From Bacillota bacterium (GTDB lineage: Bacteria; Bacillota; JADQBR01), in assembly GCA_016278515.1 (NCBI GenBank), contig JADQBR010000099.1:1-35439 (forward strand): a DNA stretch of 35,439 nucleotides. Direction: 5' to 3'. The position numbers and the translations under genes are program-made. This document shows, one piece after another, positions 7,402-32,226 of this stretch (positions are counted from its first letter, which is position 1; every line of letters begins with the position of its first letter). The notes beneath the pieces are model-generated. The model was not told the origin of the DNA. It ran no database searches and was given only the letters and a program-made list of their open reading frames with translations.

Positions 7402-7487
7402 ATAAAAAACATTCCGAAATCAAGGTGTTTATACACACCTGTCTCGGAACGTCTTTGCTCCTTAATTCTGCAGACGCCATTGCCTGC
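7402..7487 (-). promoter_or_regulatory. ANTAR-type dual-hairpin antiterminator of glnA1
   Basis: On the minus strand, hairpin P1 (7470-7487) is GCAGGC-AATGGC-GTCTGC. After 8 nt comes P2 (7446-7461), GGAGC-AAAGAC-GTTCC. Both have six-base loops with A at position 1 and G at position 4, the published signature of ANTAR protein targets. The 3' arm of P2 is also the start of a long terminator stem (7410-7451) that ends in a T-run (7402-7409). P2 and the terminator are therefore mutually exclusive. Binding by the REC-ANTAR protein encoded next door (7616-8200) would favour P2 and allow read-through into glnA1. Confidence 0.85.
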
Positions 7488-7506
7488 TTTAGTTTGCGAT
7501 TAATTC

Positions 7507-7535
7507 ATTCTAACATTTAGACTTTAAAGACTCAA
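7507..7535 (-). promoter_or_regulatory. Sigma-A-like promoter of glnA1
   Basis: Minus strand: TTGAGT (7530-7535), 17-nt spacer, TAGAAT (7507-7512). The predicted start near 7500 is just upstream of antiterminator hairpin P1, as expected for a leader RNA. Confidence 0.65.
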
Positions 7536-7615
7536 TACTAAAATGCTATGTATACAATATAACCTGAAGGTTAATTATACCAACAAAAAGGCCGTAGACC
7601 GATTGCCTACGACTG

Positions 7616-8200
7616 TTAAACGCCAATTTCATGTGCTAAAATGATTGCTTCTGCTACTTTACCCATTGAAATACATTTATTCATGCTTTGTCTTCTCAGC
7701 AATTTATACGCTTCTCCTTCACTGACACTTTTTGTCTCCATCAATATTCCTTTTGCCCGGTCTATCAGTTTTCGTGTCTCAATGGTTTCTTTCAACTGGG
7801 CAATTTCTCTTTCCAGTTCCTGAATACGTTTGTAATTACGTAAGGCCACCCCAACACTGGCAGTTAAGTTTGTGTCAGTTACCGGCTTAATAAGCCAAGC
7901 CAGCATCCATGGTTCTGCTTCTTTTTTTTCTATATGCTCCAGCTGCCAATTGTTTAGAAGTACTACAGAAGGGGCAACATTATCTTCATATGTAATCTTC
8001 GCAATTTCCAAACCGCCCAAACCAGGCAGGTCAGCGTCCACAATAATAAGATCAGGAGTAGTAGCCCTGACCATCCGTATGGCGGCATTACCGTCATCCG
8101 CCTCCCCCACAATTTGGTTGCCGTCTCGGACTAATATTTGTTTTACTTTGGTTGATAATCTCTTATCCTTAACTGCCACAAACACTTTTGAACGAAACAT
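7616..8200 (-). CDS. Response regulator with ANTAR RNA-binding domain (antiterminator)
   Basis: 194 aa from the ATG at 8200 (GGAGGG seven bases upstream). The longer reading to 8371 covers the promoter and leader and is rejected. Residues 1-120 are a receiver domain with phospho-acceptor Asp55 (DLIIVDADLPG) and Lys105 (LIKP). Residues 125-140 form a coiled-coil linker. Residues 135-192 are an ANTAR domain with RAKGILM and EAYKLLRRQSM. The family (AmiR, NasR, EutV) binds dual-hairpin RNA and prevents transcription termination. Such hairpins lie upstream of glnA1, amtB and glnA2 here, so this is very likely the nitrogen-assimilation antiterminator. No partner histidine kinase is in the window, so the activating signal is unknown. 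Confidence 0.92.
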   Translation of the reverse strand: MFRSKVFVAVKDKRLSTKVKQILVRDGNQIVGEADDGNAAIRMVRATTPDLIIVDADLPGLGGLEIAKITYEDNVAPSVVLLNNWQLEHIEKKEAEPWMLAWLIKPVTDTNLTASVGVALRNYKRIQELEREIAQLKETIETRKLIDRAKGILMETKSVSEGEAYKLLRRQSMNKCISMGKVAEAIILAHEIGV

Positions 8201-8254
8201 ATTTAGCCCTCCAACCAGTCTCTCTCCTTTATTATACTTTAGAAAATAGTAAAA

Positions 8255-8300
8255 TATAAAAGAATCCTCACCAGCAGCACTGATGAGGACTTCGTTGCCC
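8255..8300 (-). promoter_or_regulatory. Candidate autoregulatory attenuator in the ANTAR gene leader
   Basis: Minus strand: a hairpin GGGC-AACGAA-GTCC (8287-8300) has an A1/G4 hexaloop. It overlaps a terminator with stem TCCTCATCAG/CTGGTGAGGA (8265-8289) followed by TTCTTTTA. It resembles P2 of the glnA1 and amtB leaders. I could not find a convincing P1 between it and the predicted transcription start, so ANTAR autoregulation is possible but less secure than for the other three leaders. Confidence 0.5.
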
Positions 8301-8327
8301 TTTGAATTAATATTCTGTTTAACATAT

Positions 8328-8356
8328 ATTATCCATGCAGGGGTCTGACTTGTCAA
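8328..8356 (-). promoter_or_regulatory. Sigma-A promoter of the ANTAR regulator gene
   Basis: Minus strand: perfect TTGACA (8351-8356), 17-nt spacer, GATAAT (8328-8333). It starts a leader of about 120 nt holding the attenuator at 8255-8300. The elements lie in the non-coding gap just before the rubredoxin-like fragment. Confidence 0.72.
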
Positions 8357-8361
8357 GGAAT

Positions 8362-8544
8362 TCACAAACAAATACTGTATACAATTAAATCTCTTGTTCT
8401 ACTACCCTTAGCTATTTGGTCCTTAGTCCTCAACTGGGCTGAAATCGTCGGTCCCACCCCGCATTCAGGACAGATCCAAGTATCCGGCAGATCTTCGAAG
8501 GCAGTACCAAGGGCAACTCCATTTTCCGGGTGGGACATACACAC
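8362..8544 (-). CDS. Truncated rubredoxin-like protein with one CxxC knuckle
   Basis: 60 aa. [19 protein letters not shown] followed by ICPECGVGP is the second half of a rubredoxin (PENG..PGT.FEDLP..W.CP.CG). The first iron knuckle (CxxCGYxYD, about 20 residues) is absent, and a non-rubredoxin tail of about 25 residues follows. A start with GGGGAGGAAGG upstream (about 8547-8557) suggests it may still be translated; GTG or ATG (MCMSHP) are both possible. A rubredoxin needs four cysteines. Only two remain from the motif plus Cys2, so a normal mononuclear iron site is unlikely. It is divergent from asnB. It is either a decayed gene or a repurposed half-domain. Confidence 0.55.
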
Positions 8545-8563
8545 TTTTCCTTCCTCCCCATAT

Positions 8564-8607
8564 AAATGATATTGAAAATCAATTCCTATTAGGAAGCAAT
8601 ATCATTT
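8564..8607. promoter_or_regulatory. Nested inverted repeat between the rubredoxin fragment and asnB
   Basis: Perfect 11-base arms AAATGATATTG (8564-8574) and CAATATCATTT (8597-8607) enclose a second palindrome, TTCCTATTAGGAA (8583-8595). The structure ends at the Shine-Dalgarno of asnB (AAGGAGG, about 8610-8616). It could be a protein operator for the divergent pair or an RNA hairpin controlling asnB translation. No T-run follows, so it is not a terminator. Confidence 0.6.
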
Positions 8608-8626
8608 TTAAGGAGGAATTAAAATT

Positions 8627-10468
8627 ATGTGTGGCATAGCAGGATGGATTAGCCGAGAAAACAACTTGTTATATCAAAAAGAGATACTAACTAAAATGTC
8701 TCAGACGCTTAAGAAGCGGGGGCCTGATGAACATGGCTCCTGGTTGTCACCCCAAGCAATATTTGCCCATCGCCGCCTTACAGTAATTGACCCGGTTGGC
8801 GGGTCTCAACCCATGGTTAAAAATCAGGGAGAGAATAAATATGTGATAGTTTATAATGGAGAACTCTATAACACATCAGAGTTAAGAAATCGCTTGTTGA
8901 AACTTGGTCACTCCTTTAAAAGTCATTCAGACACAGAGGTGCTTTTGACATCATTTATTGAATGGGGAGTAGAATGCGTCCAGTACTTCAACGGAATCTT
9001 CGCCTTTGCCATTTGGGATGAAGGCCGACACCGTCTGTTTCTCGCCCGGGATCGTCTGGGAGTAAAACCGTTATTCTTTAAAATTTGGGAAGGCAATCTA
9101 TTATTTGGCTCGGAGTTAAAAACTTTACTTGCTCACCCCTCTGTCAAATCGAAAATAAACGCAGAGGGATTAGCGGAAGTACTAGTGTTAGGTCCCGGTC
9201 GAACACCGGGCCACGGTATATTCCGCGGAATTAAAGAACTGAAGCCCGGGTACTGGCTGACTTATGGCGAACAGGGTTATCGGAAACAACAATATTGGTC
9301 TCTAAACAGTACTACTCACGAGGACAATCTAGAAACTACTACGGAAAAGGTTTACTCCCTTCTCAAAGATGCAGCCGAACGTCAATTAGTATCAGATGTA
9401 CCTATATGTACTATGCTGTCAGGCGGCCTGGATTCCAGTGCCTTGTCTGCATTTGCTTCTAGGTATTTACAGAAACAGGGACAACAACTAAATACTTACT
9501 CAATCGACTATGTCGAAAAAGAAAAATACTTTAAATCCACCGAATTTCAACCTAATTCGGACATCGACTGGATACCGATGGTTTCCGATTACTTGAATAC
9601 TAATCACCATTATGTGCAAGTCGAAACTAATCAACTTTTTAACAGTTTGAATACCGCTGTCACTGCCAGAGACCTGCCCGGGATGACCGATATCGATTCT
9701 TCTTTATACCTCTTTTGCCAAGAAATTAAGCGAGACGCCACTGTTGCGCTATCAGGCGAATGCGCCGATGAAATCTTTGGCGGCTACCCATGGTTTTTTC
9801 GGAAGGAGGCTCTAAGCAGTAACTCATTCCCCTGGATGCGTATGCAGAATAAGAGACTGAAGTTTCTGTCTCCTGAAATAATAGCGAAAACAAAGGCTGA
9901 AGACTATCTCGCAACCCGCTATGAAGAGGCCGTTGAGGAGACTCCGCTTGTTGCCGGGGAAAGCCTGCAAGAGCAGCTTATGCGCAAAATGCAGTACCTA
10001 ACGATTTTCCGCTGGATGCCCATTCTTCTGGATCGCAAAGACCGGATGAGCATGGCAACCGGGTTAGAAGTAAGGGTACCGTTTTGTGACCATCGTTTAG
10101 TTGAATACGCCTGGAATATTCCATGGAAGATGAAAACTACCGGAAACATGGAAAAAGGAATTCTTAGAAAAGCACTTAACGGCGTCATTCCCGAAGAAAT
10201 CATAACCCGCAAAAAGAGCCCTTATCCCAAGACTTTTAACCCAAATTACTTAAATGCAGTTCAGCAAGGCGTACTAGAAATATTAGGGGATTCTTCATCA
10301 CCGCTACTGCCTTTAATAAATCAAAAACTAGTAAAAGAATTGGCATTATCTGAAGCCGCTAAGATTAATCTTCCTTGGTTTGGTCAATTAATGAGCGGCC
10401 CCCAACTATTGGCCTATTTTATTCAGGTTGATATATGGCTTCGAAAATACAAAGTGTCAATAGTATAA
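8627..10468 (+). CDS. asnB: Asparagine synthetase, glutamine-hydrolysing
   Basis: 613 aa, ATG preceded by AAGGAGG. Cys2 (MCGIAGW) is the class II glutaminase nucleophile, with RGPDEHG, YNGELYN and SDTEV in the N-terminal domain (1-220). The synthetase domain holds the PPi loop SGGLDSSA (residues 265-272), GECADEIFGGYPW, DRKDRMSMATGLEVRVPF and RKKSPYPKT. It converts aspartate, glutamine and ATP to asparagine and glutamate. The length is typical of the bacterial AsnB/AsnO group. It is monocistronic, with its own terminator at 10499-10525. Placement among glutamine and glutamate genes fits general nitrogen metabolism. A wall or peptide-modifying role is known for some paralogues but nothing here supports it. 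Confidence 0.95.
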   Translation: MCGIAGWISRENNLLYQKEILTKMSQTLKKRGPDEHGSWLSPQAIFAHRRLTVIDPVGGSQPMVKNQGENKYVIVYNGELYNTSELRNRLLKLGHSFKSHSDTEVLLTSFIEWGVECVQYFNGIFAFAIWDEGRHRLFLARDRLGVKPLFFKIWEGNLLFGSELKTLLAHPSVKSKINAEGLAEVLVLGPGRTPGHGIFRGIKELKPGYWLTYGEQGYRKQQYWSLNSTTHEDNLETTTEKVYSLLKDAAERQLVSDVPICTMLSGGLDSSALSAFASRYLQKQGQQLNTYSIDYVEKEKYFKSTEFQPNSDIDWIPMVSDYLNTNHHYVQVETNQLFNSLNTAVTARDLPGMTDIDSSLYLFCQEIKRDATVALSGECADEIFGGYPWFFRKEALSSNSFPWMRMQNKRLKFLSPEIIAKTKAEDYLATRYEEAVEETPLVAGESLQEQLMRKMQYLTIFRWMPILLDRKDRMSMATGLEVRVPFCDHRLVEYAWNIPWKMKTTGNMEKGILRKALNGVIPEEIITRKKSPYPKTFNPNYLNAVQQGVLEILGDSSSPLLPLINQKLVKELALSEAAKINLPWFGQLMSGPQLLAYFIQVDIWLRKYKVSIV

Positions 10469-10498
10469 TTGTTATTGAAGGTTAATAATGTGCTCCCT

Positions 10499-10525
10499 AA
10501 GCCTCTTTTAAAAGAGGCTTTACTA
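10499..10525 (+). terminator. Terminator of asnB
   Basis: Ten-base arms AAGCCTCTTT and AAAGAGGCTT (499-508 and 511-520) with a two-base centre, followed by a weak T-rich tail. It lies 30 nt after the asnB stop. Confidence 0.7.
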
Positions 10526-10642
10526 TTTATTAGTGGAACTGTGACCAATATCACCATTCTATGTGACTTGCCCGGTTGTCAATTGACGAAATCTTAGATA
10601 TATTGGCTATAGAAGTAAAAACATGGGCAGAGGAGGACAAAT

Positions 10643-12385
10643 ATGAATAATGATATTAACGGTGAGTTCGGAGAAGTCATCTGGCAGGTTGGCGGCCAAC
10701 AGGGGGAGGGGATTGATTCCACAGGTGATATTTTGGCAAGTACTCTTAACCAGCTTGGTTACTATTTGTACGGTTACAGGGAGTTTTCCTCTCGCATAAA
10801 AGGGGGGCACACTCATTATCGCCTGCGCATCAGTGATAACCCCATTGGAGCAATCAGTCACAAGCTTCACTTACTAGTTGCTTTGGATCAGGAATCTCTC
10901 AGTACACAGAATCATTTCCTTGTCCCAAGCGGCATTATAATAGCAGATGAAAACCTAAACGTTAACAGCACCATGGTAAGGCACAATGTTGTTAAAGCCC
11001 CGTTAACCCGCTTGTCGGAAGATTTAGGCAATAAGATTGTTAAGAATATGGCAGCCTTAGGCATATCCATAGCCATCATGAATTTAAGATTAGCTGACTT
11101 TGAAGACGTTATCAACCAGCGCTTTTCAAAGAAAGGCAGTAAAGTAGTAGCACTAAATCTTGCTGCTATTGAGAGCGGCTTCGACTGGGCATGTCAGCAC
11201 GAGTTGTTGGGTAAACTGCCTTTAAAGTCCGGCGACAAAAAGAAACGTTTATTTATGATTGGTAACCAAGCTGCAGCTCTTGGCGCCATAATGGCCGGTT
11301 GTCGTTTTATATCTGCCTATCCAATAACCCCGGCAACAGAAATTATGGAATATCTAGGTAGACAAATGCCCGAAATTGGCGGAGCCGCTATCCAAGCGGA
11401 AGACGAAATAGCTGCAATCAACATGGTTTTGGGAGCAAGCTATGCCGGCGTTCGTGCCATGACGTCCACTTCCGGCCCCGGTCTATCCCTAATGATGGAA
11501 ACCATTGGGCTATCCGGCATGACAGAAACCCCGGTGGTAATTATAGATGCTCAACGGGGTGGTCCAAGTACGGGCCTGCCGACTAAACATGAACAAAGTG
11601 ATTTACTGTCAGCAATATTCGGGACGCATGGGGAAGTACCGAAAATAGTTATAACTCCAACCAGCGTATCCCAGTGCTTTTATCAAACTGCAAATGCATT
11701 TAATCTAGCAGAAAAATATCAGTGTCCTGTAATAGTATTATCTGACGTTGCCCTTTCTTTAGGCAAACAAACCGTGGAGCCCTTTGATGCCAGTAAAATT
11801 AAAGTTGACAGAGGGCAGATTCTTTTAGAAGTTGACCCTACTCCGGAAGACGGTACATTTTTTCAGCGATATGGTTATACTGCATCGGGCGTATCCCCCC
11901 GTCCTCTACCCGGAACAAAAAATGGAGTTCATTTTGTAACTGGATTGGAACATGATGAAACCGGACTACCTGCTGATGACCCTGCTTTACGAACTGCTAT
12001 GATGGATAAACGTTTAAATAAGATACCTGATTTATTGCCTGGAAGTACCTTTTACCACGGTCCGGATAATCCGGACTACTTGCTAGTAGGGTACGGTTCC
12101 ACTTACGGACCAATTGCGGAAGCTCGAGAAATGATGGCCAATGACGGTTTATTAGTCGGTCATTTGCACATCCTTATTATTTGGCCTTTCCCCATCGCAG
12201 AATTGGATTATAATATGGAAACTGCCAAAAACATCTTTATTATTGAAAACAACGCAACCGGACAATTAGAGGGACTTCTAGATATGCATTCTCCTTATGA
12301 CCGTAAAACTAAACCCATTAGGAAATATAACGGTCAGCCGTTTGTGCCTTTCGAAATATATCAACAAATAAAGGAGAGATTATAA
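10643..12385 (+). CDS. korA: 2-oxoacid:ferredoxin oxidoreductase, gamma-alpha fused subunit
   Basis: 580 aa, ATG preceded by GGAGGA. Residues 1-185 are the gamma domain (WQVGGQQGEGIDSTGD, FSSRIKGGHTHYRLR). Residues 200-580 are the alpha/pyrimidine domain with SAYPITPATEIMEYL (YPITP 226-230), EDEIAAINMVLGASYAG, TSTSGPGLSLMMETIG and PTKHEQSDLL. The fused gamma-alpha order and the separate beta gene are typical of 2-oxoglutarate:ferredoxin oxidoreductases (KorAB), which interconvert 2-oxoglutarate and succinyl-CoA with CoA and ferredoxin. Substrate choice (2-oxoglutarate versus other 2-oxoacids) cannot be proven by eye. The setting among glutamate and glutamine genes favours 2-oxoglutarate. Its stop overlaps the start of the beta gene. 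Confidence 0.88.
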   Translation: MNNDINGEFGEVIWQVGGQQGEGIDSTGDILASTLNQLGYYLYGYREFSSRIKGGHTHYRLRISDNPIGAISHKLHLLVALDQESLSTQNHFLVPSGIIIADENLNVNSTMVRHNVVKAPLTRLSEDLGNKIVKNMAALGISIAIMNLRLADFEDVINQRFSKKGSKVVALNLAAIESGFDWACQHELLGKLPLKSGDKKKRLFMIGNQAAALGAIMAGCRFISAYPITPATEIMEYLGRQMPEIGGAAIQAEDEIAAINMVLGASYAGVRAMTSTSGPGLSLMMETIGLSGMTETPVVIIDAQRGGPSTGLPTKHEQSDLLSAIFGTHGEVPKIVITPTSVSQCFYQTANAFNLAEKYQCPVIVLSDVALSLGKQTVEPFDASKIKVDRGQILLEVDPTPEDGTFFQRYGYTASGVSPRPLPGTKNGVHFVTGLEHDETGLPADDPALRTAMMDKRLNKIPDLLPGSTFYHGPDNPDYLLVGYGSTYGPIAEAREMMANDGLLVGHLHILIIWPFPIAELDYNMETAKNIFIIENNATGQLEGLLDMHSPYDRKTKPIRKYNGQPFVPFEIYQQIKERL

Positions 12386-13248
12386 TGATAGAACCTAAAA
12401 TATTCCGTTCTGGTGTTCGCCCCAATTGGTGTCCTGGCTGCGGGGACTTTTCAGTTCTTAACGCACTAACCCATAGTTTTAGCGAACTTGACCTGGCGCC
12501 GCACCAAATTACTACCGTTTCAGGGATTGGTTGTTCCGGTCGTATTTCCGGTTACCTTAACACATATGGTTTCCACGGCGTTCACGGCCGCGCCCTACCT
12601 GTGGCTCAAGGTGTAAAATTGGCAAACCGGGATCTGACAGTGATGGCAATTGGCGGCGACGGGGACGGTCTCGGTATTGGTCTAAACCATTTGATACATG
12701 CTATCCGCCGAAACGTTGATGTCACCTATATTATTATTGATAATCATATTTATGGCTTAACCAAAGGACAAACTTCACCTACTAGCCCCACGGGGTTCAC
12801 CAGTAAATCGACTCCAAAAGGAAGTCTGGATACAGCAGTCTCTCCTATCCAATTAGCTCTCAGCGCTGGCATCGGTTTCTTGGGGCAAGCATTCGTCGGT
12901 AATCCAAAGCAAATGATTAAATTAATTGAGTCTGGAATAAAATATAATGGTTTTTCTCTCATTATAGCGCTGTCTAACTGTATTACTTACAATAAGGTAA
13001 ATACCCTCAAATGGTTTAGGGAAAATATCCATGATTTAGATAACGATGAAACCTATTCACCCTCTGATCGCAAACAAGCGTTGCTTTCTGCGGTAGAGCA
13101 TAATGATTTGGTGACAGGCCTTATTTACCACGAAGAAAAGGCGAGCTGCCAGGATCTGCTCCCCGGTTATCCCAACAGACCGTTAGTCGCACAAAACCTT
13201 ACCCCTCAACAAGAAATACTTGATAACCTGACAGCGGCTTTTTATTAG
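12385..13248 (+). CDS. korB: 2-oxoacid:ferredoxin oxidoreductase, beta (TPP) subunit
   Basis: 287 aa. CPGCG (16-20) and GIGCSGRISGY begin the thiamine-diphosphate domain. GGDGDGLGIGLNHLIHAIRR followed by IIIDNHIYGLTKGQ is the TPP/Mg motif (GDGD at 91-94). This matches KorB/PorB-type beta subunits, which lack a long C-terminal ferredoxin domain. It is coupled to korA by overlapping stop/start. Together they make or use 2-oxoglutarate, the carbon acceptor of glutamate synthase and the signal sensed by PII, tying carbon flux to the nitrogen genes around it. A strong terminator follows. Confidence 0.88.
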   Translation: MIEPKIFRSGVRPNWCPGCGDFSVLNALTHSFSELDLAPHQITTVSGIGCSGRISGYLNTYGFHGVHGRALPVAQGVKLANRDLTVMAIGGDGDGLGIGLNHLIHAIRRNVDVTYIIIDNHIYGLTKGQTSPTSPTGFTSKSTPKGSLDTAVSPIQLALSAGIGFLGQAFVGNPKQMIKLIESGIKYNGFSLIIALSNCITYNKVNTLKWFRENIHDLDNDETYSPSDRKQALLSAVEHNDLVTGLIYHEEKASCQDLLPGYPNRPLVAQNLTPQQEILDNLTAAFY

Positions 13249-13278
13249 GATTTTTTTCAGCCTAATGAGTTGGCAAAC

Positions 13279-13321
13279 AGAATGAGAGAGGAAAAGTTTT
13301 TCATTTCCTCTCTCATTCTTA
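13279..13321. terminator. Bidirectional terminator between korB and glnK
   Basis: Long stem AGAATGAGAGAGGAAA (13279-13294) pairs with TTTCCTCTCTCATTCT (13304-13319). It lies between the convergent korB and glnK stops and can serve both strands. Confidence 0.85.
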
Positions 13322-13327
13322 ATAATA

Positions 13328-13666
13328 TTAAATAGCGTGGTCACCTTTTTCCCCGGTTCTAATGCGAATAGCCTCCTCAATATGGTAGATAAATATCTTT
13401 CCATCACCGATTTCTCCGGTGGAACCCTCTTCTTTAATAATCTCTGTTACCTGCTCAACTTGCTGGTCACTAATTACTAACTCAAGTTTAATTTTTGGCA
13501 GTAGGTTTATGGTAAAGGTGCTCCCCCTATATACTTCCGTTTTTCCTTGCTGAAGACCGCAACCGGTAACATGTGTTACAGTCATACCTTTTATTCCGTA
13601 GTTACCTAAAGCCTCTTTTACTTGTTCAAATTTAGCAGGTCTCATTATACATTCTAATTTTTTCAT
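13328..13666 (-). CDS. glnK: PII signal-transduction protein, GlnK-like
   Basis: 112 aa. MKKLECIMRPAKFEQVKEAL and GMTVTHVTGCG are the PII N-terminus. The T-loop is QGKTEVYRGSTFTINLLPK, and GEIGDGKIFIYHIEEAIRIRTGE is the C-terminal signature that binds ATP, ADP and 2-oxoglutarate. Position 51, the uridylylated Tyr of E. coli GlnB/GlnK, is Phe here (RGSTF, residues 47-51), so UTase control is excluded. Ser49, the cyanobacterial phosphorylation position, is present but may mean nothing. Its start overlaps the amtB stop by four bases, the standard amtB-glnK pair. It is expected to plug AmtB and relay energy and 2-oxoglutarate status. Confidence 0.94.
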   Translation of the reverse strand: MKKLECIMRPAKFEQVKEALGNYGIKGMTVTHVTGCGLQQGKTEVYRGSTFTINLLPKIKLELVISDQQVEQVTEIIKEEGSTGEIGDGKIFIYHIEEAIRIRTGEKGDHAI

Positions 13667-15009
13667 TTAGTAATCTCCCCCATACTCAAAACTGTTGTAC
13701 CGATCCTTTCTTCCAAATCGACATAAGCTTCACTTCCATGTTCATTTATGTCAAGCCCTCCGAGTTCTTCTGCCTCAGATACCCTCAGACCTACTAGAGA
13801 CTTTACGATGAGTGCCGCAGCAGTTGCACTAATTGATACAAACAGGAAGACAACAACAACACCTAAAAGTTGAATGAGCAGTAATTCTACTCCACCGCCG
13901 TAGAATAGTCCTCCATTCACAGCAAATAGACCAACACCAATTGTCCCAAAAGCACCGCAAATACCATGTACACTTATTGCTCCTACAGGGTCATCTATTC
14001 TTATCTTCTTATCAAATATCTCTACAGCAGCAACCATTATAATACCACCGGCTGCACCCAATATTAAAGCCCCTACCGAGCCAATGGAGGCTGCCCCGGC
14101 CGTAATGGATACCAACCCGGCTAATGCACCGTTTAAAACTAACGAGGGGTCCGGCTTACCATGCCTTAACCAGGTATATGCCATTGTGGACAATACTCCT
14201 GCTGCCCCTCCCAATAGTGTTATAACAGCAATAGAAGCAATGGCCATGTCAGTCCCTGCAACTGTGCTGCCTGCATTGAAGCCGAACCAACCAAACCACA
14301 GTATTAGAACCCCAAGCGCTCCTAAAGGCATACTATGACCTGGTATAGGCATCACCTTACCATCGGGTGAATACTTGCCAACTCTTGCTCCCAGTAAGAC
14401 CGCTATTACCAAAGCCGACCAGCCGCCTGTAGAATGGACCACGGTTGACCCAGCAAAGTCTATAAATCCAAGGTCACCCAACCAGCCGCCACCCCAAATC
14501 CAATGGCCAACGACAGGATAAATAAAAGCAGTAATTAAAATCGTTAATAAGAAATATGCACCGAATTTAATTCTTTCTGCAACTGCTCCGGATACGATAG
14601 TAGCAGCAGTGGCGGCAAACACCGCTTGAAAGATCCAAAATGCCATGGTCGGTATACCAAAGTCCATTTTATCTGCACCAGCCAATAGGAAATGGTTTAA
14701 TCCAATTATTCCACCAAGGGTATCACCAAACATAAAAGCAAATCCAACTATGAAAAATGTCACGGCCCCAACCGCAACTGTAACTATATTTTTCATGATA
14801 ATGTTTACAGCGTTTTTTGCGCGAGTAAAACCTATTTCAACCATGGTAAATCCGGCATGCATAAAAAAAACTAAAAAAGCAGCTATTAAAGTCCAGACCG
14901 TATCCAATGCCAATGCATTTGTAAGAGGCGTTGGGCTTTCTGCGGCAAACGTAGGCAATGCCAACACAAAAATTGAAGTCAGGCTGTAAAATAAGATTTT
15001 TTTTAACAT
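13663..15009 (-). CDS. amtB: Ammonium transporter AmtB
   Basis: 448 aa from the ATG at 15009 (AAGGGAGAGG upstream). The extension to 15042 runs into the attenuator. An N-terminal signal-like helix ending LALPTFAAE is followed by eleven transmembrane helices with family motifs GFTMVEIGFTRAKNAVNI, DFAGSTVVHSTGGW, GWFGFNAGS and HGICGAFGTIGVG. The conserved pore histidines lie in VVHSTGG and SVHGICG. It conducts ammonium into the cell and is gated by the PII protein encoded directly downstream. Expression probably depends on read-through from glnA2 and on the ANTAR antiterminator in the 105-nt gap. Confidence 0.95.
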   Translation of the reverse strand: MLKKILFYSLTSIFVLALPTFAAESPTPLTNALALDTVWTLIAAFLVFFMHAGFTMVEIGFTRAKNAVNIIMKNIVTVAVGAVTFFIVGFAFMFGDTLGGIIGLNHFLLAGADKMDFGIPTMAFWIFQAVFAATAATIVSGAVAERIKFGAYFLLTILITAFIYPVVGHWIWGGGWLGDLGFIDFAGSTVVHSTGGWSALVIAVLLGARVGKYSPDGKVMPIPGHSMPLGALGVLILWFGWFGFNAGSTVAGTDMAIASIAVITLLGGAAGVLSTMAYTWLRHGKPDPSLVLNGALAGLVSITAGAASIGSVGALILGAAGGIIMVAAVEIFDKKIRIDDPVGAISVHGICGAFGTIGVGLFAVNGGLFYGGGVELLLIQLLGVVVVFLFVSISATAAALIVKSLVGLRVSEAEELGGLDINEHGSEAYVDLEERIGTTVLSMGEITK

Positions 15010-15040
15010 AATATCCTCTCCCTTAAACGTTTTTATATAC

Positions 15041-15105
15041 AAAAAGCGACGCTTCTCCTTAAAAAGCGTCGCTGCTTATCTTCGCATGTACCTCATTGTA
15101 CCTGC
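15041..15105 (-). promoter_or_regulatory. ANTAR-type dual-hairpin antiterminator between glnA2 and amtB
   Basis: Minus strand P1 (15084-15105): GCAGGTAC-AATGAG-GTACATGC, one mismatch in eight pairs. P2 (15064-15077): AAGC-AGCGAC-GCTT. Both six-base loops have A1 and G4. The terminator (arms 15064-15073 and 15045-15054, ten perfect pairs, T-run 15041-15045) uses bases of P2, so the two folds exclude each other. The unit starts ten bases after the glnA2 stop, so it gates continuation of the glnA2 transcript into amtB-glnK. Confidence 0.85.
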
Positions 15106-15114
15106 CTAATTATA

Positions 15115-16437
15115 TTAAAATTTTGTCAAATACTGATCTATTTCCCATTGATGTACTTGCGTGCGGTATTTGTCCCACTCAAGTTTTTTAGCCTCAAGGT
15201 ACCTTGCGCCAACGTGTTCGCCCAATGCGCTAAGAATTACTTCATCCTGCTCTAAACACTTAACTGCGTCTATTAAACTGCCTGGCAAACTATCAATTCC
15301 AGCTTCGTCAAGTTGGGCAACCGTCATTTCATAGATGTTAACATCTGTAGATTTTGGCGGTATGATTTTGTTTTTAATACCATCCAAGCCAGCTTTCAAC
15401 ATTACAGCTATAGCTAAATAGGGGTTGCATGATGGATCTGGGTTACGCATTTCAATACGAGTGCTGGCACCTCTCTTAACCGGTATTCTAATTAATGGGC
15501 TACGGTTACGAGCCGACCATGCGATATATACAGGTGCTTCATATCCCGGTACAAGTCGCTTGTAAGAGTTAACTGTCGGGTTGGTAATTGCGGCAATAGC
15601 TCTAGCGTGCTTAATCAACCCGCCAAGATAATAATATGCAGTTTCGCTTAACTCTAAATCTCCATTAGAATCATAAAAAGCGTTTTCCCCGTCTTTAAAG
15701 AGGGACTGGTTAGCGTGCATGCCGGAACCGTTAATCCCGAATATTGGTTTTGGCATAAAGGTAGCAAATAACCCATGTCTTTGTGCCATAGTACGTACCA
15801 CAAAACGGAAAGTAGCGATATTGTCTGCTGTTGCTACCGCATCCGCATATTTAAAATCAATTTCATGCTGACCCGGTGCAACCTCATGGTGTGAGGCTTC
15901 AATCTCGTAACCCATTTTTTCTAAAGTAATAGCCATATCTCTTCTGGCGTTTTCTCCCTTATCAACCGGTGATAGGTCAAAGTAACCGGCATCATCATGG
16001 GTTTCTAGCAAAGGACGTCCTTTTTCGTCAGTGTTTAGCAAGAAAAATTCTGCTTCCGGCCCCACATTCATGCTAAAACCTAGTTCCTCCGCCTCAGCAA
16101 CTACTTTTTTTAACACATTTCGCGGGCATCCGACAAAGGGAGTACCATCTGGATTGTAGATATCGCAAATAAATCTTGCAACTGCGCCTTCGTTGGGACG
16201 CCATGGGAAAATAGCAAAAGAATCTAAATCTGGTTTTAGGTACATGTCTGACTCTTCAATTCTTACAAATCCTTCAATGGACGAACCGTCAAACATTAAT
16301 TCTCCATCCAATGCTTTTTCCAATTGACTTGAGGTTATGGCAACATTTTTTAAAACACCAAAAATATCCGTGAACTGAAGTCTGATAAACCTTACATCAT
16401 TGTCTTTTACTGTCTGTAATAATTCATTTCTCTTCAT
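15115..16437 (-). CDS. glnA: Glutamine synthetase type I-alpha, second copy
   Basis: 440 aa, highly similar to the copy at 6041-7372 ([62 protein letters not shown]). The ATG at 16437 follows AAGGAGGC. Both copies keep the active-site blocks, so both are probably active. Most differences lie near the N-terminus and in the C-terminal 90 residues. It heads a glnA2-amtB-glnK operon. A glutamine synthetase in front of amtB-glnK couples ammonium uptake to assimilation. The leader has its own sigma-A promoter, an ANTAR-like hairpin and a terminator. Confidence 0.96.
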
Positions 16438-16628: not shown

Positions 16629-17636
16629 TCACATGAATTCAATATTCAACTTATCCAAAACAGTTTGAATTGGGTTTATAATCGTTCTAGTATCAGAACC
16701 GGCAAACAGTAACCCGACAGCTTCGCCTTTTTCATTTGTTACCAGCGATCCGCTGTCGCCAGGTAAAGATTTTATATCGGAAACTATTTGCCCTTCAAAG
16801 AATGCAGTAATGTTTTCTGACATGTTTACTTTTAGGCTAACGTCAACTGCCTCGATTGTACCTGAGGTAAAACCGCTGGTTCTACCCAACTTCCCAACAT
16901 TACTTCCAATATTGGCTTCACCCACGCCTTTTACCTCTCCGATCTTGGGTATTTGACTGGTTACTTGATTGCTGTCCTTAACCTTTGCAACGGCAGCATC
17001 TACGTAATTGCCTGAAGGATTAGCTCTTTCCATTTTAATCGTATAAGATGGCCTTATTAACTTGACAAAAATATTAGCAAGCCGCGTTACACCCTTAGCC
17101 AAAGGGCAAGTAGGCACCTCACTGTCTTTCACAATAGGGACAAAGTCTTCCAAATAGGCAATGGTATCAGTGTCCATAACACCTCCATCTGCCGGCCCTG
17201 GCTGTAGGATGGGATCACCTTTCTTAGATCTGCCGTCCGACCCGTTGGTAACGTTAGCTAAGACATGGTTATTTGATAATATTAATATATCTCCGTTTCT
17301 TTTACTTTTAACCACTGCGCCCAATGTACCAGCGGTTATGGCATAATGCCCTACACTAACCCCTGGATAAGCCGGTCTAATCCTATCAGTGGCAGCCAAT
17401 GCTTTTACCTCACCAATTTCAACAACATCCGTTTTAGCATTTCTTACGGTCCCAGGAATGACGCTTCTAGCTCGCAATTCTTTCCTATCCACTTTTTTTG
17501 TCACAAAAACTATAATTGAGGGCTCCTCTGTCTTTACTCCTTTGACAGTTTTATTGCCAATTCCGACACCAACTACATTATCTTTTCTTAAGATTGATCT
17601 TTTGCTGGCTGACAAAGCTTTTCGACATTTATCCAC
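16629..17636 (-). CDS. Trypsin-fold serine protease, no signal peptide
   Basis: 335 aa, GTG start behind GGGGAGGTG. The catalytic triad can be placed: His124 in LSNNHVLAN, Asp213 in YVDAAVAKV, Ser295 in LPGDSGSLV. The N-terminal 90 residues contain VVGVGIGNKTVKG and SIIVFVTKKV, a segment common in this bacterial family of chymotrypsin-like proteins with Nal1-like organisation. No signal peptide or membrane helix is seen, so it acts inside the cell or is delivered otherwise, for example within a developing spore. It lies between the nitrogen genes and the small-protein block, on the same strand as the latter, which may place it in sporulation. Substrate unknown. Confidence 0.82.
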   Translation of the reverse strand: MDKCRKALSASKRSILRKDNVVGVGIGNKTVKGVKTEEPSIIVFVTKKVDRKELRARSVIPGTVRNAKTDVVEIGEVKALAATDRIRPAYPGVSVGHYAITAGTLGAVVKSKRNGDILILSNNHVLANVTNGSDGRSKKGDPILQPGPADGGVMDTDTIAYLEDFVPIVKDSEVPTCPLAKGVTRLANIFVKLIRPSYTIKMERANPSGNYVDAAVAKVKDSNQVTSQIPKIGEVKGVGEANIGSNVGKLGRTSGFTSGTIEAVDVSLKVNMSENITAFFEGQIVSDIKSLPGDSGSLVTNEKGEAVGLLFAGSDTRTIINPIQTVLDKLNIEFM

Positions 17637-17741: not shown

Positions 17742-18161
17742 CTAAATAATATCCAGCAATAATAAACCCAGTAGAAAAATCACAAGTATATCTACTTCGT
17801 CTTGTAATAGCAGCACTACTAATATACCACCGACAAACAGCAAATCTATCCACTCTGATTCATGCGAACTTACCTTAGGCGTTTCTATCGGTTCCTGCTT
17901 AACGGGGAGGTTATTATTACTGTCCTCGGTATCCTGGGTAATTTCGTCGCTGGTCCCTGTATCATCACCCGCCATTTCATCGCCGTTCCATGTATTATTA
18001 CTCGTTGTTTCTTCGCTGTTCCCTGTCTCATTACTGCTGTTTTCTATTGGCAGGGTAGACGTTTCTTCTTCAATAGTCGCTTCGTCACCAACCACTCCAT
18101 CATTAGCCGAGGCACGCATATTAGATTGACTGCTGCGGCCTCTTCTGGACCTCCTTGGCAT
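17742..18161 (-). CDS. Small acidic low-complexity protein with hydrophobic C-terminus
   Basis: 139 aa, ATG behind GGAGGAAAAG. The start (MPRRSRRGRSSQSN) is basic. Residues 20-95 are rich in Glu, Asp, Ser, Thr and Asn. Residues about 102-139 form two hydrophobic stretches (WIDLLFVGGILVVLLL and ILVIFLLGLLLLDII) separated by QDEVD. There is no recognised domain. The short leucine/isoleucine core interrupted by acidic residues echoes the microprotein module at 20139-20655. It is probably a spore-envelope or mother-cell membrane component, by inference from neighbours. It is 17 nt downstream of the 121-aa gene, same operon. Confidence 0.65.
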   Translation of the reverse strand: MPRRSRRGRSSQSNMRASANDGVVGDEATIEEETSTLPIENSSNETGNSEETTSNNTWNGDEMAGDDTGTSDEITQDTEDSNNNLPVKQEPIETPKVSSHESEWIDLLFVGGILVVLLLQDEVDILVIFLLGLLLLDII

Positions 18162-18178: not shown

Positions 18179-18544
18179 CTAAATTATCTTATTTAAATCT
18201 CTTAATAAAGTAGTAAGGCTGACTGATTTCACTACTTTATCCACTTTCTCAGCCCGGTAAGTACTTAAAAAGGGTTTAATTGCCAATAGCAGATTTACCC
18301 TAGGGTCCAAACTGGATGTGCTTTCGGCTGCTTTGCTTTGTTCCTGCATCCTTTGTAAAGCTTTGTTACTGATTAAATTCTTTACTGCCTCTGCTTTCTT
18401 TGGTTCTGATAGCATTCCAGCAATTTGAGAAAGATTCTTTGCCATGTCACCATTCTCCAAAACGCTTTTCATTTTTTCAATCATTTCAGGATCAATGCCC
18501 ATTTCGTTTCCGTTCCCATTGGCATTCTCATTGTTCTTTGTCAT
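18179..18544 (-). CDS. Conserved-looking helical small protein of the spore-associated block
   Basis: 121 aa. The N-terminus is Asn-rich (NNENANGNGNE). A helical segment follows, DPEMIEKMKSVLENGDMAK, which matches in pattern the start of the 98-aa protein at 19768-20064 (DPAVLEKLKQALENDELKE). The C-terminal half reads DPRVNLLLAIKPFLSTYRAEK and then KVDKVVKSVSL, an amphipathic pattern I associate with small hypothetical proteins of sporulating Clostridia. No known domain can be named. Its start overlaps the end of the 325-aa gene by 17 nt and has a G-run Shine-Dalgarno, so the two are co-translated. Confidence 0.68.
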   Translation of the reverse strand: MTKNNENANGNGNEMGIDPEMIEKMKSVLENGDMAKNLSQIAGMLSEPKKAEAVKNLISNKALQRMQEQSKAAESTSSLDPRVNLLLAIKPFLSTYRAEKVDKVVKSVSLTTLLRDLNKII

Positions 18545-19505
18545 TATTTAACCCCCCCATGAATTCACCTTCGAAAAGGAAAAAAAGTAATGCTAAAAAA
18601 AAGATTGTGTCGACTATATTTCCCTTGCGCGGCCTATAGCTTTTCTGCGTCACAGGGCGATCTTTCTTAGGCCTGGCCTTGGAGTAGTTGTTTTCACCCG
18701 CGTAATTGGAGTATTTATCGAAAATTGAGGATACCTTAGGTTTTTGATTTAATTGCTGCATCATTTCTTCCAGTCTTTTACCCAGTATAGTCAAGTCGTC
18801 ACTTTGGCCATGGTTCTTTTGCTCTCTTTCTATTTCTTTGAAGGAATCGTCACTCTTATTGGTTATAAAGTTTGGCGGCAATTTAATACCTTGGCCCAAT
18901 GCACCTAACTGCTTCTCTGTTTTTTCAAAGGCTTCGAAAAGTTTATCTTTGTCTGCTTTACTAAAATTCTCTCTGATGACATTCAGTTTTTCATTTGCCT
19001 TGATTAAAATATCGGAAGAATTAATATTAGGGTATTCATCCGGTTCATCATTGTCTTTACCTTCTGTTTGTAACAGCTGCTCTTCTTGCTCCTCCCCAAC
19101 TATTTCCTCATTTACCTGCTGTTCTTGAGGGATACTAGTTAGTGGCTGATGCGAATCAAATTCAACTTCAATCTCTTCCTGATTTTCAACCTCAACCTCT
19201 TCCTCAACTAACTTATCAGTTTCTTCCTGTGGTGGCCCTTGCCGTTCAATTACTTTCTTCTCTTTTAAGTTAACCTGATTTCCAACAATCCCGGTCTTAC
19301 TATTCGTTTGTTCATTTTCGTTTTGTTCCTGATTACGTGCTGTTGATACTTTACCAGGTATCAATTTAGTATTTTTCTTAATGGGGCGACTGGTGCCTAA
19401 CGGCCTAGTAATCGATTTTACATCGGACTTGTCATTTTTCTCCCCATTTAGATAACTTTTCACAAACGATTTTTCAGTACTATTAATGGCCACATTCTTC
19501 ACCAC
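18528..19505 (-). CDS. Large Glu/Gln-rich protein ending in the microprotein-like hydrophobic module
   Basis: 325 aa. Residues 1-75 are basic and Lys/Thr-rich. Residues 90-155 are extremely acidic (runs such as EEVEVENQEEIEVE). Residues 165-260 are helical (EKLNVIRENFSKADKDKLFE). The end has one hydrophobic stretch, DTIFFLALLFFLFEGEFMGG, then a short polar tail. This stretch matches the pattern of the 29-32-aa microproteins nearby (FLIILILLLFDGDLF): a leucine/phenylalanine helix followed by acidic-Gly-acidic and Phe/Leu. A GTG start behind AAAGGTGG fits. A sigma-K-like promoter (19534-19561) lies just upstream. No known family is recognised; a coat or exosporium scaffold anchored by the C-terminal module is an inference. 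Confidence 0.7.
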   Translation of the reverse strand: MVKNVAINSTEKSFVKSYLNGEKNDKSDVKSITRPLGTSRPIKKNTKLIPGKVSTARNQEQNENEQTNSKTGIVGNQVNLKEKKVIERQGPPQEETDKLVEEEVEVENQEEIEVEFDSHQPLTSIPQEQQVNEEIVGEEQEEQLLQTEGKDNDEPDEYPNINSSDILIKANEKLNVIRENFSKADKDKLFEAFEKTEKQLGALGQGIKLPPNFITNKSDDSFKEIEREQKNHGQSDDLTILGKRLEEMMQQLNQKPKVSSIFDKYSNYAGENNYSKARPKKDRPVTQKSYRPRKGNIVDTIFFLALLFFLFEGEFMGGLNNDKEQ

Positions 19506-19593: not shown

Positions 19594-19710
19594 CTAATAA
19601 AAGAACATCAAAGTCAAAACCAATAGAAATTCTCGCTCCCGACTCTCTAAGACCCCTTTTGTAAATAAACATAATGCTAAAATAATCAAAAATAACACTT
19701 CACTACCCAT
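19594..19710 (-). CDS. Unannotated 38-aa hydrophobic microprotein
   Basis: ATG at 19710 with GGCGGGTG upstream, TAG at 19594-19596. The protein begins MGSEVLFLIILALCLFTKG, has a charged middle (ESREREF) and a second hydrophobic end (LLVLTLMFFY). The first helix repeats the LFLIIL core of the four tandem microproteins at 20139-20655. It lies between the 98-aa gene terminator and the 325-aa gene promoter, same strand. Function unknown; probably membrane or spore-layer associated. Confidence 0.6.
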   Translation of the reverse strand: MGSEVLFLIILALCLFTKGVLESREREFLLVLTLMFFY

Positions 19711-19767: not shown

Positions 19768-20064
19768 TTATTTAGGTTTAGGTACTGCTTTGCCTAATAG
19801 CATTTCTTTCATAAAAATTATAAGCATTTCTTTTTCTTCAGGCGCCAGTTGATCCTTTATAGACTCATATAGTGGTAATAATTCAGTCATGTTTCTTCGA
19901 AGATATGAAATGAACGTCTCCATATTTCCCTGGTTTAGTTCCTCTGCAATTTCATTTATGACCTGAGGACCTCCAAGTGCTTCAGATAACTTTTCCTTTA
20001 ATTCATCATTTTCAAGAGCCTGCTTTAACTTCTCCAACACAGCAGGGTCTAGGTTTTTAGTCAT
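19768..20064 (-). CDS. 98-aa helical protein, paralogous in its N-terminus to the 121-aa protein
   Basis: ATG at 20064 behind AGGAGG. The sequence is all amphipathic helix (LDPAVLEKLKQALENDELKE, SYLRRNMTELLPLYESIKDQ). The first 30 residues align with the middle of the 121-aa protein at 18179-18544 (acidic-Pro-x-hydrophobic-hydrophobic-Glu-Lys spacing). No cysteine, membrane segment or known motif is seen. It lies in the minus-strand spore-associated block between two terminators, so it is a separate transcript or is reached by read-through from the microprotein array. Confidence 0.65.
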   Translation of the reverse strand: MTKNLDPAVLEKLKQALENDELKEKLSEALGGPQVINEIAEELNQGNMETFISYLRRNMTELLPLYESIKDQLAPEEKEMLIIFMKEMLLGKAVPKPK

Positions 20065-20096: not shown

Positions 20097-20122
20097 ATCG
20101 GCCATACTTAAGTATGGCCGAT
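20097..20122. terminator. Palindromic terminator downstream of the microprotein array
   Basis: ATCGGCCATACTT (20097-20109) and AAGTATGGCCGAT (20110-20122) form a perfect 13-base inverted repeat with no spacer. On the minus strand it is followed by T-rich sequence. It sits 17 nt after the last microprotein stop. Confidence 0.75.
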
Positions 20123-20138: not shown

Positions 20139-20237
20139 TTATTTCTTGTCGTCGAAAATGTCGCCACCAAACAGCAATAATATTAAAATTATTAAGAATA
20201 CTAAGCTGGAGTTACCTTCTTCACCAAAAAATCCCAT
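20139..20237 (-). CDS. Tandem spore-associated microprotein, copy 4 in transcription order (32 aa)
   Basis: ATG at 20237 with AAAGGGGGC upstream. The protein begins MGFFGEEGNSSLVFLIIL, continues ILLLFGGDIF and ends DDKK. It is one of four near-identical consecutive genes. The layout is a Gly/Phe head, an acidic pair, NSS, a hydrophobic helix of about 12 residues, then Gly-Asp-Ile-Phe. This copy has GGD where the others have DGD and carries the longest charged tail. Codons vary between copies while the protein is conserved, which points to selection on the protein. Confidence 0.82.
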   Translation of the reverse strand: MGFFGEEGNSSLVFLIILILLLFGGDIFDDKK

Positions 20238-20279
20238 TCTATTGCCCCCTTTCATTTTGTGTTTCGGGAAATTTTGTAA

Positions 20280-20375
20280 TTAATGTTTGTCGAATAAGTC
20301 TCCATCAAATAATAGCAGTATTAAAATAATCAAAAAAACTAAACTAGAATTGCCTTCCTTTCCAAAGAAACCCAC
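20280..20375 (-). CDS. Tandem spore-associated microprotein, copy 3 (31 aa)
   Basis: GTG start at 20375 with AAAGGGGGGC upstream, stop TAA at 20280-20282. It begins VGFFGKEGNSSLVFLIIL and ends LLFDGDLFDKH. Lys replaces Glu in the acidic pair. The spacing to its neighbours (141 and 148 nt start to start) shows tandem duplication. The ribosome binding site is also conserved between copies. Confidence 0.82.
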   Translation of the reverse strand: MGFFGKEGNSSLVFLIILILLLFDGDLFDKH

Positions 20376-20427
20376 TTTATTGCCCCCCTTTCATGTTGTA
20401 TTTCCGAAAATATTCGTTAATAAATGT

Positions 20428-20517
20428 TTAATCGAATAAGTCTCCATCAAATAATAGTAATATTAAAATAATCAAAAAAACCAAACTAGCATTACCTTCT
20501 TCACCAAAGAAACCCAC
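20428..20517 (-). CDS. Tandem spore-associated microprotein, copy 2 (29 aa)
   Basis: GTG start at 20517 with AAGGGGGC upstream, stop at 20428-20430. It begins VGFFGEEGNASLVFLIIL and ends LLFDGDLFD. It is the shortest copy, lacking the basic tail residue. Same operon and orientation as the other three. Confidence 0.82.
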   Translation of the reverse strand: MGFFGEEGNASLVFLIILILLLFDGDLFD

Positions 20518-20559
20518 CTTATTGCCCCCTTCCTTCTTGTTATCACATACCTAATCCTA

Positions 20560-20655
20560 TTAGTGATTGAATAGATCACCATCAAACAACAACAATATTA
20601 AAATAATGAGGAATACCAAACTTGAATTGCCTTCTTCGCCAAAAAAACCACTCAT
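20560..20655 (-). CDS. Tandem spore-associated microprotein, copy 1, first in operon (31 aa)
   Basis: ATG at 20655 behind AAAAGGAGGG, stop at 20560-20562. It begins MSGFFGEEGNSSLVFLIIL and ends LLFDGDLFNH. It is the promoter-proximal copy, with the strongest Shine-Dalgarno. A sigma-K-like promoter lies 58-84 nt upstream. I cannot name a family. The size and Gly/Phe-plus-hydrophobic layout recall small sporulation proteins such as the YjcZ family, but the sequence is different. Confidence 0.83.
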   Translation of the reverse strand: MSGFFGEEGNSSLVFLIILILLLFDGDLFNH

Positions 20656-20712: not shown

Positions 20713-20739
20713 TATACTATGAGCGTTTTTATAAAGTGT
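20713..20739 (-). promoter_or_regulatory. Sigma-K-like promoter of the microprotein array
   Basis: Minus strand: AC (20738-20739), exactly 16 nt, then CATAGTATA (20713-20721), a full match to CATAnnnTA. This predicts late mother-cell expression during sporulation. Confidence 0.65.
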
Positions 20740-20794
20740 GCATTAGGCGAACAAATTTCGCTAGGCGTCCAAAACATTAAAAGCATTTTTGAAC

Positions 20795-20853: not shown

Positions 20854-21060
20854 ATGGCCAGTATTAAAAAAATGGATGCATTCTGTTCTATGATTGAAGA
20901 GGCAATACAAGACGAATTAAGTGCAGTTTCTATGTACGCCGAAATGGCAACTATGGTGGATAATGGTAACTTAAGGACTATTATTATGGGTATTGCAGGT
21001 GATGAATATGGTCACGCGCGAACCTGGATGACCTTATTAGAGCTTTATGACTGTGATTAA
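20854..21060 (+). CDS. Mini ferritin-like (diiron) protein
   Basis: 68 aa, ATG behind GGGAGGT. Helix one has MIEEAIQDELSAVSMYAEMA and helix two IAGDEYGHARTWMTLL. This gives the E...E and E..H spacing of ferritin-like/rubrerythrin diiron ligands. With only two helices it is half a ferritin fold and must dimerise to make a four-helix bundle, as known for encapsulated ferritin-like proteins and related short proteins. No encapsulin gene is in the window. The divergent partner is the microprotein array and the promoter is sporulation-type, so a role in iron or oxidant handling in the spore is plausible but inferred. Confidence 0.7.
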   Translation: MASIKKMDAFCSMIEEAIQDELSAVSMYAEMATMVDNGNLRTIIMGIAGDEYGHARTWMTLLELYDCD

Positions 21061-21309: not shown

Positions 21310-21558
21310 ATGACCGTAGGAACTAAAATGCATACTGCTTTAACAAGTATTGAAAGCGCAAAAGCTAGTTTGGAATCTTTTGCCTTGGAAACCCAGGACA
21401 AAGCAGCAAAACAAGATTTCATGAATCTTTCTCAACAACTTGAAACTACTGCCAACACTCTCAAGCAGAGAGTAAACTATATTGAGCAGCAGGAACCTGG
21501 ATATAAAATGCAACAACAGCCTCAACAAAATCAGAATCAGCAGAACCAACTTAAATAA
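21310..21558 (+). CDS. DUF1657 family protein
   Basis: 82 aa, ATG behind AAAGGAGGA. MTVGTKMHTALTSIESAKAS then LESFALETQDKAAKQDF is the DUF1657 pattern (about 65 residues, helical hairpin), ending RVNYIEQQEPGYK. A Gln/Asn-rich tail (QQQPQQNQNQQNQ) is extra. In other spore-formers DUF1657 genes accompany spoVAC/D/E and DUF421 genes and are forespore-linked. Here it stands alone, with its own terminator. The 249-nt gap before it holds no gene I can support. Confidence 0.85.
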   Translation: MTVGTKMHTALTSIESAKASLESFALETQDKAAKQDFMNLSQQLETTANTLKQRVNYIEQQEPGYKMQQQPQQNQNQQNQLK

Positions 21559-30833: not shown

Positions 30834-31617
30834 ATGTTTTCGTTGAATCCTATTATCCCAGAGCATAATCATGAGGAAAAGCAGATTCGATCAACTATCA
30901 AACGTTTTTTCAAAGAATACCATATTGCAGCGCTTTTACGGCAATCAAATTTCTTCAAAGCTAAGGGCTTTTCTGCCAGCTTCTTGTTTGAGTTCATCTT
31001 CAGCTTGATTTTTAGCGGTAAAAATTTGTTTCGATTGTTGGACTCCTCGTCTAAAACGAATTGTGGTAAGGATGCAGTTTATCGGTTCCCGAATTCTGCT
31101 AGATATAACTGGCGTAAGTTCCTACTGGCCTTGGCTTCAGTTATTATTAAACAAAAAGTGTCTCCTCTTACTTCGGATGAAAGGGAAAATGTTTTAATTG
31201 TAGACGATTCCCTTTAAGCCGCAACAGAAGTAAACTGGTCGAACTTCTTGCCAGGGTTTATGATCATGTTGAACACAAGTATGTCAATGACTTTCGGCTT
31301 TTAACACTGGGATGGTCTGACGGCAACACTTTTCTGCACTAGCTTTTTCGCTTTTGAGTTCCAAAAAGCAGCAAAATCGGCTCTGTGATATCGATTCTGG
31401 CATTGATAAACGTACAAATGGCTACAAAAGAAGAAAAGAAAGTGTTAAAAAAGCTACAGAAGCGCTATTTGATCTTCTAGATCAGGCTACAAAATATGCT
31501 ATCCCAGCAAAATATATTCTTTTTGACAGTTGGTTTGCCTATCCAAAGGTTATCAAAGGGGTTGTGGAGTATAATATCCATGCAATCTGCATGATCAAGG
31601 CGATACCCAAGGTTTAC
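30834..31617 (+). mobile_element. IS4-family-like transposase, frameshifted and missing its end
   Basis: The start codon ATG at 30834 sits in an inverted repeat (about 30792-30844) that may be the element's left end, with a TATAAT-like box inside. The first frame (to 31217) has FKEYHIAALLRQSNFFKAKG and ends at VDDSL, the first catalytic Asp. A frame change continues with SRNRSKLVELLARVYDHVEH (about 31219-31330), then another change to LSSKKQQNRLCDIDSGIDKR (from about 31354) and LFDSWFAYPKVIK, the second Asp. At about 31618 homology switches to a different transposase family. At least two frameshifts make it inactive. Confidence 0.7.
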
Positions 31618-32226
31618 TATATCTGGAGCAAACCGACCCAGATGCTATGCATACTCAGGTTGAGCATGCTAAATATCTCAAGGAACAGAAAAAAGCTGAC
31701 TATTTCTTTACTGTTAAGGGTAATCAAAAAACACTTTTGCAAGCCATCGAAGATTTAGACGACGGGGATTTTTCCCCCTGAATACAAAACATTGGATAAA
31801 GGCCATGGCCGGATTGAAGTGCGGAAAATCCGAACCAGTACGGCATTAAATGATTACATTGAATTTCCTTACGTGGCACAAGTTTGCCGGATTGAACGCA
31901 TTACCTATAAACTGAACGGAGAATTAAAGCGTAGTGAAATCGCCTATGGTATAACAAGTTTGTCCCCCGAAAAGGCTGATGCCAAGCGGTTGCTATCCCT
32001 AAATCGTGGTCATTGGTGCATTGAAAACCGTTTACATTGGGTTAGGGATGTAACATTTGATGAAGACCGTTCCCAGGTTCGGGTCGGCGAAGGGCCAAGA
32101 GTAATGGCCACTCTCCGCAATGTTGCCATAAGTCTGTTTCGATTGCATGATATTAAAAATACAGCGCAGGCTCTTCGAAAATGTAGTCGGAATATGGAAA
32201 TTGCATTAAATTACGTTGGACTATAA
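31618..32226 (+). mobile_element. ISAs1-family transposase C-terminal remnant
   Basis: From about 31618 the frame reads DPDAMHTQVEHAKYL, ADYFFTVKGNQKTLL and DLDDGDFSP and meets a stop at about 31780. The next frame continues LDKGHGRIEVRKIRTS and NRGHWCIENRLHWVRDV, then FDEDRSQVR and ATLRNVAISLFR, to a stop at 32226. These are the ISAs1-family ends (DALHTQ, LKGNQ, HW.IEN.LHWV.DV). The N-terminal 60% is absent, replaced by the unrelated transposase on the left. It has one frameshift. Confidence 0.8.

Follow-up and report, generated by a model that had tools for sequence, protein, structure and literature searches.

Tandem genes for a hydrophobic microprotein behind a sigma-K-type promoter: a candidate spore envelope component in Bacillota

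Spore envelope proteins are poorly known beyond Bacillus and C. difficile, and very short genes are the ones most easily lost. The window, i.e., the whole stretch of 35,439 nucleotides that was analysed, contains four consecutive minus-strand ORFs of 29 to 32 codons, which raises the questions whether they are genes and what a cell would gain from four nearly identical microproteins (Table 1). A preliminary description had reported matched ribosome binding sites, the starts ATG, GTG, GTG and ATG, and a spacing of 132 to 148 nt. All of this was confirmed from the coordinates and the sequence, with ribosome sites AAAAGGAGGGATTTTA, GGAAGGGGGCAATAAG, AAAGGGGGGCAATAAA and GAAAGGGGGCAATAGA and measured start-to-start distances of 138, 142 and 138 nt. 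The start of copy 4 was set at the ATG at 20237, because its ribosome site matches those of the other copies, and not at the in-frame ATG at 20255 given in the ORF list. At the protein level the other copies in the window are 87–93% identical to copy 1, and a genome search found no further copy outside the array. The hairpin directly 3' of copy 4 would stop or weaken the transcript, so that the four cistrons may share a single one; taken alone it is weak evidence, with two terminator-like hairpins found in the 2.2 kb region versus 1.7 expected.

Table 1. Features of the array and its neighbourhood in the window. G001 and G120 are the two other genomes with orthologous arrays; percentages are protein identities.
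Feature	Position	Strand	Remarks
Putative sigma-K-type promoter	20713..20741	-	GCACA (-35), 15 nt, CATAGTATA (-10)
Microprotein, copy 1	20560..20655	-	31 aa, ATG start, MSGFFGEEGNSSLVFLIILILLLFDGDLFNH
Microprotein, copy 2	20428..20517	-	29 aa, GTG start
Microprotein, copy 3	20280..20375	-	31 aa, GTG start
Microprotein, copy 4	20139..20237	-	32 aa, ATG start
Terminator-like hairpin	20097..20122	-	11 pairs; consensus scan
Small helical-looking protein	19768..20064	-	98 aa; weak relatives in G001 (29%) and G120 (24%)
Second microprotein	19594..19710	-	38 aa, two hydrophobic segments; G001 relative 56%
Charged protein	18528..19505	-	325 aa, short hydrophobic tail IFFLALLFFLFEGEF; G001 and G120 relatives end alike
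Conserved protein	18179..18544	-	121 aa (NLLLAIKPFL); 62 and 56%; best conserved array neighbour
Double-tail protein	17742..18161	-	139 aa, variable hydrophilic body, conserved double hydrophobic tail LLLQDEVDILVIFLLGLLLLDII
NAL1/trypsin-like serine protease	16629..17636	-	335 aa; relatives close the conserved block in G001 and G120

The substitution pattern answers the first question. Pairwise comparison of the 21-codon core revealed dN values of 0.02–0.08 among the window copies, whereas synonymous change is near saturation (pS 0.85–1.08, at or near saturation, in five of the six pairs); copies 2 and 3 represent the youngest pair (dS 0.36, dN 0.02). When these nucleotide changes were redistributed at random, a pair showed on average 3–10 amino-acid changes versus 0–3 observed, and none of 2000 trials reached the observed value in five pairs (0.0255 for copies 2 and 3). 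The differences are distributed 21/3/58 over codon positions 1, 2 and 3, and among the six frames change is lowest in the coding one (0.16 versus 0.42–0.67 in the others). The four copies are selected protein genes under strong constraint, and duplicates rather than products of chance. Most of the duplications are old, the sequence having since been kept alike. The preliminary description had named two results that would refute it, a lack of synonymous excess and a lack of conservation of the ORFs in related genomes; the excess is present, and the conservation was found as well.

Orthologous arrays are present in G001 (same family; MAG GB_MAG15_131, JACDOG010000007.1), where five copies lie within ~1.2 kb of a syntenic locus, and in G120 (different class; K_7_2_bin.50, JAICDB010000009.1), where two ORFs of 55 and 62 aa each comprise two tandem units, i.e., four units fused two by two. 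Together with the window genome (G000) the array holders span three genera. A profile search across ~400 sampled genomes of the phylum retrieved the tight family in these three only; the searches at family, order and class level covered just three genomes, and a scan of named genomes with the neighbour profile matched only the loci of G001 and G120. Single hits in G290, G044, G027 and G241 (E ~0.04) were weak and treated as chance hydrophobic matches. The copies are absent from G002, a further member of the same family, and this absence together with the presence in only three of ~400 genomes indicates that the microprotein is not a core spore component. The hydrophobic cores are typical of their lineages: the window copies read ILILLLF, most of those in G001 ILVLLIF or ILVLLLF, and those in G120 IILLLLLF or IVLLLLLF. 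The closer similarity of copies within a genome than between genomes suggests lineage-specific duplication or gene conversion of the units. The amplification noted initially for the window accordingly extends to more than one lineage, and each array of the three genera retains a similar number of units, four to five, despite differing gene arrangements, which fits the dose effect suggested in the preliminary description but does not prove it.

A near-identical element, GCACACTT-N-CATAGTATAAA-TAGAA, precedes the array in all three genomes, at distances of 57 (window), 55 and 60 nt from the first start; the complete promoter sequences are GCACACTTTATAAAAACGCTCATAGTATAAAGTAGAA (window), GCACACTTCAATCTGCCTCTCATAGTATAAAGTAGAA (G001) and GCACACTTTACCGTTTGGAGCATAGTATAAACTAGAA (G120). 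The exact -10 form of sigma-K promoters is CATANNNTA. The element exhibits AC rather than ATA at -35, a gap of 15 nt and a -10 of the CATANNNTA type. In C. difficile, AC at -35 distinguishes sigma-K promoters from the ATA of sigma-E, and sigK is driven by its own sigma-K promoter (PMC3789822); the sigma-K gap of B. subtilis, counted after the five-base -35 element, is 14–16 nt (PMC517825). Genome-wide, GCACA-N13-17-CATANNNTA has 8, 6 and 6 matches in the three genomes, compared with 3, 3 and 0 for the reversed control. These few matches include sigK of G000 (recognised as SigK by NCBIfam at 1.5e-64 from the 140 residues supplied), sigK of G001, where the motif lies 30 nt ahead of the start, and a SipL/LysM coat-type gene of G120. 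Several matches precede no plausible spore gene, and the motif alone is therefore weak; it is the conservation before three arrays and the occurrence before sigK that carry the argument. Based on these motifs, the array promoter is predicted to be of the sigma-K and not of the sigma-E type.

The array is embedded in a block common to all three genomes, which comprises the charged tail protein, the 121-aa protein, the double-tail protein and the NAL1/trypsin-like protease, and the relative of the 98-aa protein sits further along in the G120 locus. The G120 block runs on into a subtilase, a CAP protein and a SipL/SPOCS-LysM protein of the spore coat assembly type; among the neighbours in the window, no match to a named coat protein was seen. 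One property of the locus is more telling than any other: the tail pattern of the free microproteins returns at the ends of larger proteins.

Several further observations concern the surroundings of the array. The NAL1-like protease, which lies beside the array in three genera, resembles plant NAL1 in its profile matches and also gave a strong PHROG match (7.9e-67). The array block of G001 harbors two more hydrophobic microproteins with good ribosome sites (L010:10485-10580 and L010:9814-9903; MSPATQQNYGGYYWFFIIFIVIFFLLIFIDC, MPAQDYSYDYFYFFIIVIFFFLLFCGFFY), and no counterparts of them were found in the window. Divergent from the array lies a gene for a 68-aa ferritin-like protein (20854-21060, plus strand) with an EncB-like (encapsulin cargo) match of 1.4e-7, below the cut-off. 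A DUF1657 protein is encoded at 21310-21558 on the plus strand (3.6e-14), and this family often accompanies spoVA-type spore genes. A nitrogen assimilation cluster with two glutamine synthetases, parts of glutamate synthase, an ammonium transporter, P-II and an ANTAR regulator occupies positions 3375-16437, and glutamine-synthetase-like ORFs likewise adjoin the block in G001 (L010). Adjoining short ORFs at 31354-32226 (plus strand) match transposases (DDE_5, DDE_Tnp_1) and are likely broken insertion sequences.

What, then, is the microprotein for? We consider it fairly likely that the four ORFs represent a single gene in multiple copies, whose product is a hydrophobic, one-helix microprotein of the spore envelope, expressed late in the mother cell under sigma-K. 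This proposal builds on gene status, selection, promoter type and synteny, all of which are strongly supported by the comparisons above. The predicted structure is a single helix (residues 9–29; mean pLDDT 71, moderate confidence) with a short acidic end; a model of the fused G120 protein was poor (pLDDT 63) and left out. The mother cell would produce the microprotein at a late stage of sporulation, the tandem copies raising its output, and its 12–16-residue core LVFLIILILLLF would insert into the outer forespore membrane; alternatively, the peptide would be packed within a hydrophobic coat or exosporium layer. Larger neighbours whose tails match may dock beside it, and the microprotein would then be either a bulk filler or a surface to which these proteins are anchored. 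Location, abundance and docking are what we infer here, the membrane and docking role from the character of the sequence. The spore envelope had already been named in the preliminary description; the link to the spore gained support from promoter motif, synteny and neighbours, while the presence of the proteins in the spore is a prediction.

A parallel set of tail proteins also speaks for the proposal. The distant family f76 (G125, G155, G181, G255) exhibits tails of the form GF-S-x-LFLIILILLLFPGFF, which are found (GFSTLFLIILILLLFPGFF) on proteins of 38–55 aa and on CPGYGPG-rich proteins of 117–158 aa. These tails share with the window microprotein the order S-x-LFLIIL-x-LLLF-x-G and the occurrence both on short proteins and at the ends of larger ones. 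They also share the sigma-K-like sites: a strict site is located 37–76 nt upstream in eight of nine distinct f76 genes (background ~0.01–0.02 per 150 nt). The family differs in PGFF instead of DGDLF, in its Gly/Cys/Pro-rich N-terminal parts and in the lack of identical tandem copies. The profile comparison between both families scored 28.8, above the maximum of 24.2 over 150 shuffles of the hydrophobic core, thus indicating that residue order is shared beyond mere composition; the match spans 16 columns only, and homology is therefore not proven, the likeness being due to either common descent or convergence. The CPGYGPG-rich proteins with LFLIILILLLFPGFF tails and sigma-K-like promoters (L023:7099-7708, L024:7481-8173, L066, L069) probably represent a separate unannotated coat-protein family.

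A further reading generalizes this likeness. The 16-residue hydrophobic unit S-x-L-x-FLIIL-x-LLLF-[DP]-G might be a common assembly module that separate lineages of the phylum use, under sigma-K, in two ways: free, as a microprotein in multiple copies, and attached to larger coat-like proteins, as their C-terminal tail. A spore layer would then be built by tails packing against each other within a membrane or a hydrophobic sheet. We regard this as a tentative possibility, on balance doubtful. It is unlikely that the microprotein is a small membrane regulator of sporulation in the manner of SpoVM or CmpA, tuning an envelope enzyme or a morphogenetic protein instead of providing bulk. The similar size (SpoVM has 26 aa), the membrane helix and the spore-type promoter are in accordance with such a role, as is the recruitment of coat and cortex proteins by SpoVM (PMC7911427), but four to five copies per genome better suit a bulk component, and SpoVM is controlled by sigma-E (PMC7911427), which places it earlier than a product made under sigma-K. 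Moreover, the core of the microprotein is uniformly hydrophobic rather than amphipathic, and no SpoVM or CmpA profile of Pfam or NCBIfam matched.

Tandem secreted signal peptides or leaderless bacteriocins would also be small, hydrophobic and multi-copy. The very strong identity across copies and genera and the sigma-K-type promoter make this origin very improbable, and the neighbourhoods of the arrays in the three genomes showed no recognisable exporter, receptor, immunity or processing genes other than that of the NAL1/trypsin-like protease. Type I toxins, which are silenced by antisense RNA, typically form tandem arrays of ~30-aa hydrophobic peptides. The form of the array and one open antisense frame recall such repeats of the Ldr/Ibs/Fst style, an identity that is scarcely credible in view of the synteny with spore-type genes, the sigma-K-type promoter and the fusion of two units per ORF in G120. 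Promoters are not in excess (10 found versus 8.9 expected), Pfam, NCBIfam and Rfam gave no match to type I systems (Rfam matches below threshold were taken as chance), and relatives are absent from the phages and plasmids searched. A conserved repeat that is not a gene, or a product coded antisense, is practically untenable: the core units compared do share one open antisense frame, but this reading is already contradicted by the substitution pattern, with changes concentrated at third positions of the minus-strand frame, a value of 0.16 for that frame versus 0.42 for the open antisense frame, and a minus-strand ribosome site at every copy.

The initial impression that the microprotein belongs to no named family has been borne out, with no match in Pfam, NCBIfam, PHROGs, PDB, phages and plasmids, and the tested readings as YjcZ_2, SpoVM, type I toxin, phage or plasmid element were not supported. 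No earlier description of the family was found among open-licence texts, and an earlier report elsewhere is possible. The analysis defines a microprotein family that is under selection and has a promoter signature of its own as well as a conserved neighbourhood of unnamed spore-type genes, and it offers a testable idea of how larger proteins might be anchored to a spore layer. Two tiny sporulation proteins provide the closest comparison. YjcZ (PF09680, YjcZ_2) is likewise tiny and consists mostly of one hydrophobic segment, and its gene in B. subtilis, a member of the sigma-K regulon (PMC517825), sets a precedent that favours the proposal. Membership in YjcZ_2 was rejected, since the microprotein gave no match at the curated cut-off and the PF09680 profile matched no protein of the window nor of G000, G001 and G120, with a positive B. 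subtilis control; the microprotein further differs in its motif SSLVFLIILILLLFDGDLF and in near-identical tandem copies behind a single promoter. SpoVM is a membrane-associated spore peptide of similar length with a curvature-sensing helix, and its Pfam and NCBIfam profiles matched no protein of the window. It depends on sigma-E and its helix is amphipathic (PMC7911427), whereas the microprotein is multi-copy, has a predicted sigma-K-type promoter and possesses the uniformly hydrophobic core LVFLIILILLLF. In kind, the microprotein thus resembles YjcZ and SpoVM, and its new features are the tandem array and the tails that it shares with larger proteins.
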